Below, in pieces: positions 40,265 through 43,837 of a DNA stretch of 64,000 nucleotides. Position numbers and translations under genes: made by a program. The stretch is from the NCBI RefSeq assembly GCF_032108445.1, contig NZ_CP134876.1, positions 4,154,001 to 4,218,000 on the forward strand, in the 5' to 3' direction. The notes beneath the pieces are model-generated. The model saw nothing but the letters and a program-made list of their open reading frames with translations. It searched no databases and was not told where the DNA came from. The stretch comes from Micromonospora halotolerans. GTDB lineage: Bacteria; Actinomycetota; Actinomycetes; Mycobacteriales; Micromonosporaceae. Position 1 is the stretch's first letter, and each line of letters starts with the position of its first letter.

Positions 40265-41254
40265 TCAGCCGGCGGCCACGACCTCGTCGCGGGCGGCGAG
40301 CGCCTGCTGGTAGAGCCGCCCGGCTCGGTACGACGAGCGGACCAGCGGGCCGCTCATCACACCGGCGAAGCCGATCTCCTCGGCCTCCTCGCGCAGCTCG
40401 ACGAACTCCTCCGGCTTGACCCAGCGGGTGACCGGGTGGTGCCGGGGGGAGGGGCGCAGGTACTGGGTGATGGTGATCAGCTCGCAGCCGGCCTCGTGCA
40501 GGTCGCGCAGCGCCTGGGAGACCTCGGCCCGCTCCTCGCCCATGCCGAGGATCAGGTTGCTCTTGGTGACCAGGCCGGCGGCGCGTGCCTGCCGGATCAC
40601 GTCGAGGGAGCGCTCGTAGCGGAAGGCGGGGCGGATCCGCTTGAAGATCCGCGGCACGGTCTCCACGTTGTGCGCCAGCACCTCGGGCCGCGCGCCGAAG
40701 ACCTCGGCGAGCTGCTCGGGCACCGCGTTGAAGTCGGGGATCAGCAGTTCGACGCCGCAGCCGGACTGGAGGGCGTGGATCTGCCGGACCGTCTCGGCGT
40801 AGAGCCAGGCGCCGCCGTCGGGCAGGTCGTCGCGGGCCACGCCGGTGATGGTGGCGTAGCGCAGGCCCATCGCGGCCACCGACTCGGCGACCCGGCGGGG
40901 CTCGTCGGCGTCGAACTCGGCGGGCTTGCCGGTGTCGATCTGGCAGAAGTCGCAGCGCCGGGTGCACTGGTCGCCACCGATGAGGAAGGTGGCCTCCCGG
41001 TCCTCCCAGCACTCGTAGATGTTGGGGCAGCCGGCCTCCTGGCAGACGGTGTGCAGCCCCTCCCGCGAGACGAGCCCGCGCAGCTGGGTGTACTCCGGGC
41101 CCATCTTGGCCTTGACCTTGATCCACGGCGGCTTGCGCTCGATCGGCGTCTCGGCGTTGCGCGCCTCGATCCGCAGCATGCGCCGCCCCTCGGGGGCGAC
41201 AGTCGCGGTGCGCGCTGCCTGCTCGGTCGTCGGCGCGGAGTGCTCGATCGTCAC
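40265..41254 (-). CDS. lipA: lipoyl synthase
   Basis: The 329-residue radical-SAM enzyme has both iron-sulfur motifs. [12 protein letters not shown] near residue 67 binds the auxiliary cluster, and CTRRCDFC near 95 is the SAM-cluster CxxxCxxC form. It also has [21 protein letters not shown] and the closing [14 protein letters not shown] serine motif. It inserts two sulfur atoms into protein-bound octanoyl groups to give lipoate, used by SucB and the glycine cleavage system encoded in this window. I chose GTG 41254. Its partner lipB lies 3 kb away, separated by aspS and an NAD synthetase. Confidence 0.97.
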
Positions 41255-41387
41255 GAAACCGAGCCTACGCCGGTCGGCGGCCGTCGATGAACGTCGGGCG
41301 ACGGCCGTCACGCCCGAATCGTTGTGACACCGGACACGAGCGACCAGAAAACCCCGTCACACCGGGCCGGGAGAGGGTGCTAGCGTG

Positions 41388-41660
41388 CCCGACAGAGCTG
41401 CGACGGAGCCGAGTAGTGGGCCGATCCGCCAGCGCAGAGAGCCGCCGATGTGCTGGAAGGCGGTCTGGCGCCGGCCCGCGAAGACCCTCCCGAGCTGCGG
41501 GAAGAACGGCGTGCGCGCCCAGTAGAACCCGCCCGGCTGGCCCCGGTGAAAAGGCGACGAACGAGGCTCCGCCACCGTGCGGGGCGAAGGTGTGGTGGCA
41601 CCGCGAGGCTCCCGCTCGCCCACACCTCCCGGGGATCGCGTTGCGATTGATCGAGGAGGT
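41388..41660 (+). promoter_or_regulatory. T-box riboswitch with aspartate (GAC) specifier
   Basis: The leader of aspS has the T-box sequence TGGTGGCACCGCG at 41593-41605, matching the pairing site for an uncharged tRNA acceptor end. Stem I shows AGTA (41412-41415) opposite GAA followed by the specifier GAC at 41483-41485. The distal part has AGAGAG (41436-41441) and the stem CCGCC/GGCGG (41442-41446, 41459-41463). CCCG/CGGG (41388-41391, 41498-41501) closes the base. GAC is an aspartate codon, matching the downstream gene. ACCTCC (41624-41629) can pair with the ribosome-binding GGAGGT (41655-41660), so control is probably at translation: uncharged tRNA-Asp would free the site. Confidence 0.9.
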
Positions 41661-41667
41661 AACCGCC

Positions 41668-42954
41668 GTGCAACGCATCCTGTCCTCCCAGCTCAGCTCC
41701 CAGGTCGGCGAGTCCGTCCGGATCGCCGGTTGGGTGCACCGCCGCCGGCTGCTCAAGTCGGTGGCCTTCCTGATCGTCCGGGACGCCGCCGGCCTGGCCC
41801 AGGTGGTGGTCACCGACCCCGCCGTGCGGGCGGCCGTCGAGTCGCTTCCCGAGGAGACCGTCGTCGAGGTCACCGGCACGGTGGTCGCGAACGCCACGGC
41901 GCCCGCCGGGGTCGAGCTGGCCGAGCCGACGGTACGCCCGCTCGGCCCGCCCGCCGTCCCGCCGCCGTTCGACCTGTACCGGCCGGCGCTCACCGCCACC
42001 CTGCCCACCCAGCTCGACCACGCGCCGGCCGCGCTGCGCCACCCGACCCGCTCCGCCGCGCTGCGGATCTCGGCGGCGGCGGTGGCCGGCTTCCGGGCCA
42101 GCCTGGACGCCCGCGGGTTCGTGGAGATCCACACGCCGAAGGTGGTCGCCTCGTCCACCGAGAGCGGGGCGAACGTGTTCGCGCTGGACTGGTTCGGCCG
42201 GCCCGCGTACCTGGCCCAGTCGCCGCAGTTCTACAAGCAGCTCATGGTCGGCGTCTTCGAGCGGGTCTACGAGGTCGGGCCGGTGTTCCGCGCCGAGCCG
42301 CACGACACGGTCCGGCACCTGGCCCAGTACACGTCGCTCGACGTCGAACTGGGCTTCGTGGCCGACCACCGGGACGTGATGGCCGCGCTGCGGGAGACCC
42401 TGGCCGGGATGCTGGCCGAGGTCGCGGCGCGGGCCGGCGCGGCCGTCGCCACCCTCGGGCTCACCCTGCCCGAGGTGCCCACCGAGATCCCGGCCGTGCA
42501 CTTCACCGAGGCGCTGAAGATCGCCGGCGCGCCGGCCGACGAGCCGGACCTCGCCCCGGCGCACGAGCGCGCGCTGGGGGAGTGGGCGCTTCGCGAGCAC
42601 GGCTCGGACTTCCTCTTCGTCACCGGGTACCCGATGGCGAAGCGGCCGTTCTACACCCACCCGGACCCGGCGCGGCCGGCCCACTCCAACGGCTTCGACC
42701 TGCTCTTCCGGGGGATGGAGCTGGTCACCGGCGGGCAGCGGCTGCACCGGTACGAGGACTATCTCGCCGCCCTGGCCGCCCGCGGCGAGCCGGTCGAGCC
42801 GTACGCCGGCTACGTGGACGCGTTCCGCCACGGCATGCCGCCGCACGGGGGCTTCGCCATCGGGCTGGAGCGCTTCGTCGCCCGGCTCACCGGCGCGGCC
42901 AACGTGCGGGAGGTGACCGCCTTCCCGCGCGACCTGCACCGCCTCACGCCCTGA
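41668..42954 (+). CDS. aspS: aspartyl-tRNA synthetase, archaeal/short type
   Basis: The 428-residue enzyme has an N-terminal OB-fold anticodon domain (VRIAGWVHRRRLLKSVAFLIVRDAAG) and a class II core. The core has FVEIHTPKVVASSTESGANVF, SPQFYKQLMVGVFERVYEVGPVFRAEPHDTVRHLAQYTSLDVELGF (motif 2) and GGFAIGLERFVARLTG (motif 3). It lacks the large insertion domain of the roughly 590-residue bacterial AspRS, so it is the archaeal-type form and may also charge tRNA-Asn. The GTG start has GGAGGT seven bases upstream, inside a T-box leader. It is probably a second, inducible AspRS gained by transfer; the main bacterial-type gene would be elsewhere. Confidence 0.93.
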   Translation: MQRILSSQLSSQVGESVRIAGWVHRRRLLKSVAFLIVRDAAGLAQVVVTDPAVRAAVESLPEETVVEVTGTVVANATAPAGVELAEPTVRPLGPPAVPPPFDLYRPALTATLPTQLDHAPAALRHPTRSAALRISAAAVAGFRASLDARGFVEIHTPKVVASSTESGANVFALDWFGRPAYLAQSPQFYKQLMVGVFERVYEVGPVFRAEPHDTVRHLAQYTSLDVELGFVADHRDVMAALRETLAGMLAEVAARAGAAVATLGLTLPEVPTEIPAVHFTEALKIAGAPADEPDLAPAHERALGEWALREHGSDFLFVTGYPMAKRPFYTHPDPARPAHSNGFDLLFRGMELVTGGQRLHRYEDYLAALAARGEPVEPYAGYVDAFRHGMPPHGGFAIGLERFVARLTGAANVREVTAFPRDLHRLTP

Positions 42955-42958
42955 GGAG

Positions 42959-43010
42959 AAAGGAGGGGCCCCCTGTTAACAGACGGGTGTTAACAGGGGG
43001 CCCCTCCTTT
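42959..43010. terminator. 23-bp perfect hairpin after aspS
   Basis: Arms at 42959-42981 and 42988-43010 are exact reverse complements with a six-base loop; they contain AAGGAGGGGCCC and GTTAAC. The plus-strand end CCTTT and minus-strand end CCTTT allow termination of both aspS and the convergent NAD synthetase gene. Confidence 0.85.
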
Positions 43011-43012
43011 CG

Positions 43013-43837
43013 TCAGGGGGCGATCGGGAGCTGGCGCTTGTGGTCGGTGGCGTGGTAGCGGGCCACCAGCGCCGCCTCCACCTCCGGGGGCACCGGCTGG
43101 CCCTCCAGGTAGTCGTCGATGTGCTCGTAGGCCAGGCCGAGCGCGTCCTCGTCGAGCTTGCCCGGGGCCAGGGTCTCCAGGTCGGCCGTGGGCGCCTTGC
43201 CGACGAGTTCGGTGGGGGCGCCGAGCGCCGCGGCCAGCGCCCGCACCCGCCGCTTGGTGAGCCCGGTCAGCGGGACCAGGTCCGCCGCGCCGTCGCCGTG
43301 CTTGGTGAAGAAGCCGGTGACCGCCTCGGCGGCGTGGTCGGTGCCGACCACCAGCCCGCCCTCCGCGCCGGCCACCGCGTACTGGGCGATCATGCGCTGG
43401 CGGGCCTTGACGTTGCCGAGCACGAAGTCCTGCTGCGCGGCGTCGCGGAAGGTCAGCCCGCCGGCGACCAGCGCGGCCAGGGCGGCGTCGGCGGCCGGCT
43501 TGACGTCGACCGTGAGCACCCGGTCGGGACGGATGAACTCCAGCGCGGCCTGCGCGTGGTGCTCGTCGGCCTGCACCCCGTAGGGCAGCCGCATGGCGAT
43601 GAAGACGGCCGGGTGGCCGGCGGCGCGGGCCCGCTCCGCGGCGAGCTGGCAGAGCCGGCCGGCGGTGGTCGAGTCGACGCCGCCGCTGATGCCCAGGACC
43701 AGCGTGGTGAGGCCGGTGTCGACCAGGCGGTCGGCGAGGAAGACGACGCGGCGCTCGATCTCCTGGGCGGCGTCGAAGGTCGCCGGCACCCGGAGCTCCT
43801 CGGCGATCCGTTGCTGGGTCGACATCACGTCGGTCAT
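43013..43837 (-). CDS. nadE: ammonia-dependent NAD+ synthetase
   Basis: The 274-residue enzyme is the short NadE type without a glutaminase domain. The PP-loop is [21 protein letters not shown] near residue 48, with [35 protein letters not shown] and [28 protein letters not shown] following, as in E. coli NadE. It makes NAD from deamido-NAD with free ammonia. It is separate from the glutamine-dependent enzyme at 14424-16184. It is last in a likely lipB-VOC-nadE operon (gaps of 4 and 20 bases). ATG 43837 is used; ATG 43825 is possible. Confidence 0.95.

Follow-up and report, generated by a model that had tools for sequence, protein, structure and literature searches.

T-box riboswitches in Actinobacteria have been described before ileS (PMC1262725, PMC2494555), and a review of the class reports that most translational T-boxes are without a long Stem I (PMC7583486). 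In Firmicutes, an Asp-specific T-box on one of several gene copies is not new, the described example being C. acetobutylicum, where one of three aspS genes carries a T-box (PMC2494555). The T-box database searched actinobacterial reference genomes with a class II model of its own and may already list leaders such as those reported here (PMC7778990). Our literature search, which covered papers rather than T-box database entries, turned up no publication describing an actinobacterial Asp T-box. The class of RNA is a known one; its Asp specificity and its position before aspS2 are not described for Actinobacteria in the literature found.

The window analyzed here is a 64-kb stretch (64,000 nucleotides) of a single-contig genome of 6.96 Mb, and its closest named relatives, judged by the AspRS2 protein, are Micromonospora. 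An earlier note, made from the letters of this DNA, had placed an Asp T-box in front of an archaeal-type aspartyl-tRNA synthetase (AspRS2, encoded by aspS2). Our analysis makes it very likely that an Asp-specific T-box riboswitch controls the translation of a backup, probably non-discriminating AspRS.

Identification of a T-box leader upstream of aspS2

The features of the leader and the gene, all on the forward strand of the window, are as follows.

41396-41499 (+): Stem I with the specifier loop and the AGAGA/distal-loop region (RF00230 alignment; covariation in 32 relatives; 104.7 bits with the Stem I model R1)
41412-41415 (+): specifier-loop AGTA, the same in all 32 aligned sequences
41480-41482 (+): GAA preceding the specifier, invariant in the 32-sequence alignment
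41483-41485 (+): specifier GAC (Asp), invariant in 32 sequences and matching tRNA-Asp(GUC), which has G73
41497-41532 (+): probable Stem II with the S-turn AGTAGAA, read by eye against the S-turn description in PMC10651847
41589-41626 (+): antisequestrator, pairing 41589-41595 with 41620-41626 and 41603-41607 with 41615-41619; 97.3% of cells paired in 25 sequences
41594-41605 (+): T-box core GGTGGCACCGCG with the bulge TGGC at 41596-41599; core present in 79 of 80 relatives and in the window
41624-41629 (+): sequestering segment ACCTCC, complementary to 41655-41660 and sharing ACC with the antisequestrator (swap test, see below)
41655-41660 (+): ribosome-binding GGAGGT, 8 bases upstream of the GTG start
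41668-42954 (+): aspS2, archaeal-type AspRS of 428 amino acids with a GTG start (NCBIfam PRK05159; PDB match 1n9w)

An E-value search of 381 bases gave a full-length RF00230 match at 41391-41626 (+) with 49.1 bits and E 5.9e-10, and in the whole genome (6.96 Mb, E <= 10) the aspS2 leader was the better of two RF00230 matches, with E 2.5e-9. The gathering-score Rfam scan of the 64-kb window returned no entry, the 49.1 bits of the leader standing against a gathering score of 93, which is a search cut-off and not an anatomical feature of a T-box. The RF00230 search proposed in the earlier note thus came out positive by E-value and negative by the curated cut-off. The second match in the genome has just 18.2 bits and covers, as read by eye, the end of the leader before an IleRS-like gene; the curated Rfam cut-off overlooks the Asp T-box leader. 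That ileS-like gene (L156, C1:3826000-3830200) carries a T-box with a very short Stem I, the loop CCATCA, and the bulge TGGT. No RF00230 match was found at the main bacterial AspRS gene in the genome search at E <= 10. Folded alone, the leader was no more stable than its shuffles (z +1.08).

Conservation of the leader among relatives

The relatives comprised the best 80 of 387 stretches encoding a relative, together with 27 further loci (L095 and L158-L183). The GAAGAC mark and the T-box core are both present in 73 of the 80. By eye, the remaining seven divide into three in which the core is kept and Stem I is very short or unclear (L074, L078, and L079), three with a palindromic repeat in the expected place of Stem I (L043, L069, and L080), and one in which the T-box is lost (L017). 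The gene is kept despite loss of Stem I or of the whole T-box in 4 of 80 relatives.

Removal of near-identical sequences left 32 of 84 for the Stem I alignment. The RNAalifold consensus contains 21 pairs, 15 of them with compensatory change, and in a structure that we specified 95.2% of cells are paired and both sides change in 15 of 23 pairs. Six slid controls reached 35 to 51% of cells paired, all below the real structure. None of 500 shuffles reached any of five covariation measures for Stem I; for the antisequestrator, in which both sides vary in 5 of the 12 pairs among 25 sequences, 9 of 500 shuffles reached the both-side changes, 36 the number of pair types, and none the covariation score, and both sets of shuffle statistics ignore the relatedness of the sequences. 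The RF00230 match, the Stem I covariation, the antisequestrator, and the core together bear out the claim of a T-box leader before aspS.

The leader varies in form. Among the genomes of the class with two AspRSs, a long Stem I occurs in 15 of 22, 14 recognized by R1 together with L162, which is cut by a contig end, and a very short Stem I, read by eye, in the other seven (L163 and L166-L171). L163 retains GGAG and CTCC around CAGACA and looks as though it had lost an arm that its relative L161 has. In five leaders of Actinoplanes type (L073, L075, L076, L077, and L082), just 55 to 63 bases separate the mark from the core, and Stem II seems to be missing.

A palindromic repeat with the arm GGGCCCCCTGTTAAC lies directly 3' of aspS2, at 42962-43007 of the window. 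The genome gives 21 exact matches to the arm and 0 to the control, and the repeat lies within parts of the leader or replaces them in L012, L017, L043, L069, and L080. It may be a terminator or a small mobile repeat.

tRNA specificity of the leader

The specifier and the bulge fit one tRNA, the GAC triplet pairing with tRNA-Asp(GUC) and TGGC with an end carrying G73. The bulge is TGGC in 92 and TGGT in 6 of the 98 leaders with a core. In a survey of base 73 in the genome itself, covering 35 anticodons and leaving out several long tRNAs, tRNA-Asp and tRNA-Asn have G73, tRNA-Thr has U73, and tRNA-Ile, -Ala, -Arg, -Glu, and -Lys have A73. Among the codons of the strand GCGAAGACC, just GAC has a tRNA whose base 73 pairs with TGGC, namely the G73 of tRNA-Asp. 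The reading of GAC as an Asp specifier matching the downstream aspS is upheld by its invariance in 32 relatives and by this fit of TGGC. Sensing of tRNA-Asp or tRNA-Asn had been suggested; GAC agrees with the former, and the latter would need AAC.

The register of the specifier must be assigned with caution, since GAA-N-AUC is the reading in Ile leaders of the class. Shifted by one base in the same way, the specifier would be ACC or ACA and the leader would sense tRNA-Thr. This is highly improbable, and we rejected it: the U73 of tRNA-Thr here would demand a TGGA bulge and is mismatched with TGGC, the downstream gene encodes an AspRS, and UCC leaders before SerRS follow the GAA-NNN register. 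That register is supported by a leader in genome G281 (L197 and L218) that reads GAA-UCC-A, has a TGGC bulge, scores 80.5 bits with R1, and stands before a second full SerRS (362 bits, versus 443 for the main copy). The UCC leader shows specifier and gene changing together.

Mode of control

No terminator-like site was found on the leader strand in 41250-43050. Because ACCTCC faces GGAGGT and a terminator was not found, control of aspS2 is probably translational, and the leader has the arrangement of a translational (class II) T-box, in which a segment covers the ribosome-binding site and no terminator is present. Forced folds of 41587-41690 are near-equal, with -39.2 kcal/mol for the antisequestrator (ON) and -40.6 kcal/mol for the sequestrator (OFF). 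In another lineage (L095 and L165), the sequester pair is CACTCC with GGAGTG. In a swap test of 36 leaders chosen from 98, the native sequester pairing beat the swapped mean in 27 (native mean -11.2 versus swapped -9.3 kcal/mol; Wilcoxon p 4e-4, uncorrected for relatedness). Sequester pairing is weak in some lineages, and many Micromonospora leaders keep just GGAG facing CTCC, with an extra hairpin between them and a longer spacer. The near-equal folds, the lack of a terminator-like site in the region searched, and the swap test make the translational control proposed for ACCTCC and GGAGGT a probable one.

Two spacings were seen among Micromonospora leaders (e.g., L006, L016, and L026), with the core ~70 to 77 or 100 to 112 bases before the start. 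Those with the longer spacing have the extra hairpin, and in most of them GGAGCAG replaces GGAGGT.

In the proposed mechanism, the anticodon GUC of uncharged tRNA-Asp would pair with the specifier GAC and its GCCA end with the bulge TGGC. The antisequestrator, held by the tRNA, would keep ACCTCC off GGAGGT, and AspRS2 would be made. Charged tRNA-Asp would be unable to hold the antisequestrator, and GGAGGT would stay covered.

AspRS2 and the synthetase content of carrier genomes

AspRS2 scores 534.3 bits against PRK05159 (cut-off 353), in agreement with its description as an archaeal-type AspRS, and 342.9 bits against TIGR00458, under the cut-off of 368.4. Its best PDB match is the Thermus thermophilus AspRS2 (1n9w). 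The same genome encodes GatB and a bacterial AspRS; an AsnRS above cut-off was not found. These results answer the checks on aspS, gatCAB, and asnS that had been suggested, and AspRS2 is, as the earlier note supposed, a second AspRS.

Within the genus, AspRS2 is over the cut-off in 32 of 37 genomes, in pieces in one, and missing in four. Together with the four relatives that have the gene and no Stem I or T-box, these five genomes without an intact gene indicate that the AspRS2/T-box system is, on this pattern of presence and loss, dispensable. In the class, an archaeal-type AspRS occurs in 36 of 394 genomes. All 36 carriers have GatB, 22 also have a bacterial AspRS, and none has an AsnRS over the cut-off; below-cut-off AsnRS matches in 16 of the 36 fall on the archaeal-type AspRS genes themselves. 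The leader is present in 22 of the 22 genomes with two AspRSs (18 loci, G012, G025, the window, and G066).

In G066 (L183 and L192; contig C895), aspS2 is interrupted: R1 places Stem I ~3.5 kb upstream of the remaining part of the gene, and the model R2 detects the antisequestrator. By eye, the stretch between the leader and the remainder of aspS2 resembles a site-specific recombinase.

The 14 other carriers are all f51; neither a bacterial AspRS (at E 1e-60) nor an AsnRS over the cut-off was found in them. In f51 genomes (e.g., L174 and L176-L182), the archaeal-type AspRS is the sole AspRS found. Loci of eight of the 14 f51 genomes were examined, and none of the eight has a T-box core in the motif scan or an R2 match. 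Some of the sequences used to build R2 came from L166-L168, L074, and L078, so that its matches there are by construction; L043, L069, L080, and L192 had no part in it. Besides the eight f51 loci, R2 was silent on L017 and on L183, whose leader falls outside the locus. When 14 loci were scanned with Rfam at E 0.5, the results were the leader of L172 and four weak matches to microRNAs, the latter taken as noise. The Rfam silence on f51 loci means little because the same scan missed very short leaders.

The f51 enzymes are just 33 to 36% identical to the AspRS2 of the window, so clade and redundancy are confounded in this comparison. This bears on a quite possible alternative, in which no inhibitor is involved and AspRS2, under ordinary feedback, adds charging capacity when aspartate is short or growth is fast. 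Such a role is in keeping with Firmicutes, where a T-box on one of several synthetase copies is common (PMC2494555). The lack of a T-box in all eight examined sole-AspRS loci points the other way, although the contrast is weak, as those enzymes belong to another protein clade.

H24 and P79 are present in AspRS2, and among 26 T-box-bearing AspRSs the H occurs in 24 and the P in 25. We take these residues to be marks of a non-discriminating AspRS, which charges both tRNA-Asp and tRNA-Asn. Both are missing in all eight f51 enzymes, despite GatB and the lack of an AsnRS over the cut-off in those genomes, and we therefore rejected them as a sure mark. AspRS2 may be non-discriminating.

The leader is tied to AspRS redundancy, which would also suit a resistance enzyme, that is, an AspRS insensitive to a natural inhibitor and induced by the T-box once the main enzyme is blocked. 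Such a role narrows the backup explanation rather than contradicting it, and we put it forward tentatively. Self-resistance by a second SerRS, IleRS, or TrpRS is known (PMC9437257), and several synthetases, Plasmodium AspRS among them, are hijacked by a nucleoside sulfamate from Streptomyces (PMC12262901). However, a table in the former source gives no auxiliary function for AspRS (PMC9437257), and lipA lies divergently upstream of aspS2 in 78 of 80 relatives' loci, which marks a common chromosomal location rather than the gene cluster of a producer; a biosynthesis-cluster setting was rejected for this reason. The downstream nadE of the window recurs in just 16 of 80 loci, some of which are short.

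Related leaders elsewhere in the class

At E 0.01, R1 gave 67 matches in 65 of 394 class genomes. Sixteen matches have at least 80 bits: 14 stand before an archaeal-type AspRS, one of these genes being broken and one of another lineage, and the other two are in G281 and G115. In G115 (L196 and L217), the leader (85.5 bits) is followed by just a C-terminal SerRS fragment (positions 385-416), and of the leader itself just Stem I remains. Eighteen of the remaining 51 matches were examined. A T-box core with TGGT is present in 17 of these; among the 17, the part of the sequence displayed shows AUC in 14, and an IleRS-like protein was recognized by eye beside 15. The match in L214 was taken as spurious, the T-box core being missing; R1 also hit some loci, f51 and others, weakly (12-17 bits), and these hits were taken as noise.

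A FastTree phylogeny of 34 proteins with midpoint rooting places 25 T-box-bearing AspRS2 on one side (labelled 0.64) and the eight f51 enzymes with L172 in the other group (support 1.0). L172 (G239) nevertheless has a full long Asp leader (RF00230 69.8 bits), though its enzyme groups with the f51 type. Together with the SerRS case, L172 suggests attachment of the leader to more than one kind of synthetase; the same pattern would result if the leader had stayed in place and the gene behind it had been replaced. A broader and rather unlikely reading holds that one long-Stem-I translational T-box, found in at least three lineages (AspRS2, f51-type AspRS, and a second SerRS, with GAC changed to UCC), is a re-targetable cassette for spare synthetases whose spread would mark a wide, undescribed selection by natural AspRS and SerRS inhibitors.

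Discussion

The structure and specificity of the leader, its complementarity to the ribosome-binding site, the presence of two AspRS genes, and the association of the leader with redundancy are computed results. From gene content and known T-box logic, we infer the backup role of AspRS2. As the main bacterial AspRS is without a T-box, production of AspRS2 would begin once the main enzyme charges less tRNA-Asp; the leader would then act as the switch and AspRS2 would aminoacylate tRNA-Asp. If AspRS2 also charges tRNA-Asn, GatCAB could restore Asn-tRNA too. That AspRS2 would be used on meeting an AspRS inhibitor, as the earlier note had imagined, is a plausible hypothesis.

A backup AspRS behind a charging sensor in antibiotic-rich genera makes the question of selection by AspRS inhibitors testable. 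The leaders also form a natural study series, from a long Stem I through Stem I without Stem II to very short hairpins, and with a specifier changed from Asp to Ser along with the gene.

The system can be compared with four described ones. The second SerRS, IleRS, or TrpRS of antibiotic producers likewise represents two synthetases of distinct origins for one amino acid (PMC9437257). Those enzymes are tied to a known antibiotic in the same account, whereas none is known for AspRS2. Thermus thermophilus AspRS2 (1n9w and 3kfu) is also an archaeal-type second AspRS in a bacterium, matching residues 3-428 of the query with 389 bits; Thermus also has an AsnRS (PMC4206432), whereas none is over the cut-off here. 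The aspS T-box of C. acetobutylicum shares the arrangement of several Asp synthetase copies with one under a T-box. However, Firmicutes aspS T-boxes are discussed as antitermination (PMC2494555), and here no terminator was found. The actinobacterial ileS translational T-box shares the core, the antisequestrator, and the pairing over the ribosome-binding site that replaces a terminator (PMC1262725, PMC7583486), but the present leader has an Asp specifier, a TGGC bulge, and AspRS2 rather than IleRS downstream. Translational T-boxes mostly have a shortened Stem I (PMC7583486), whereas here it is long in most two-AspRS genomes of the class. Relative to the literature found, the aspS2 leader extends translational T-boxes beyond ileS.
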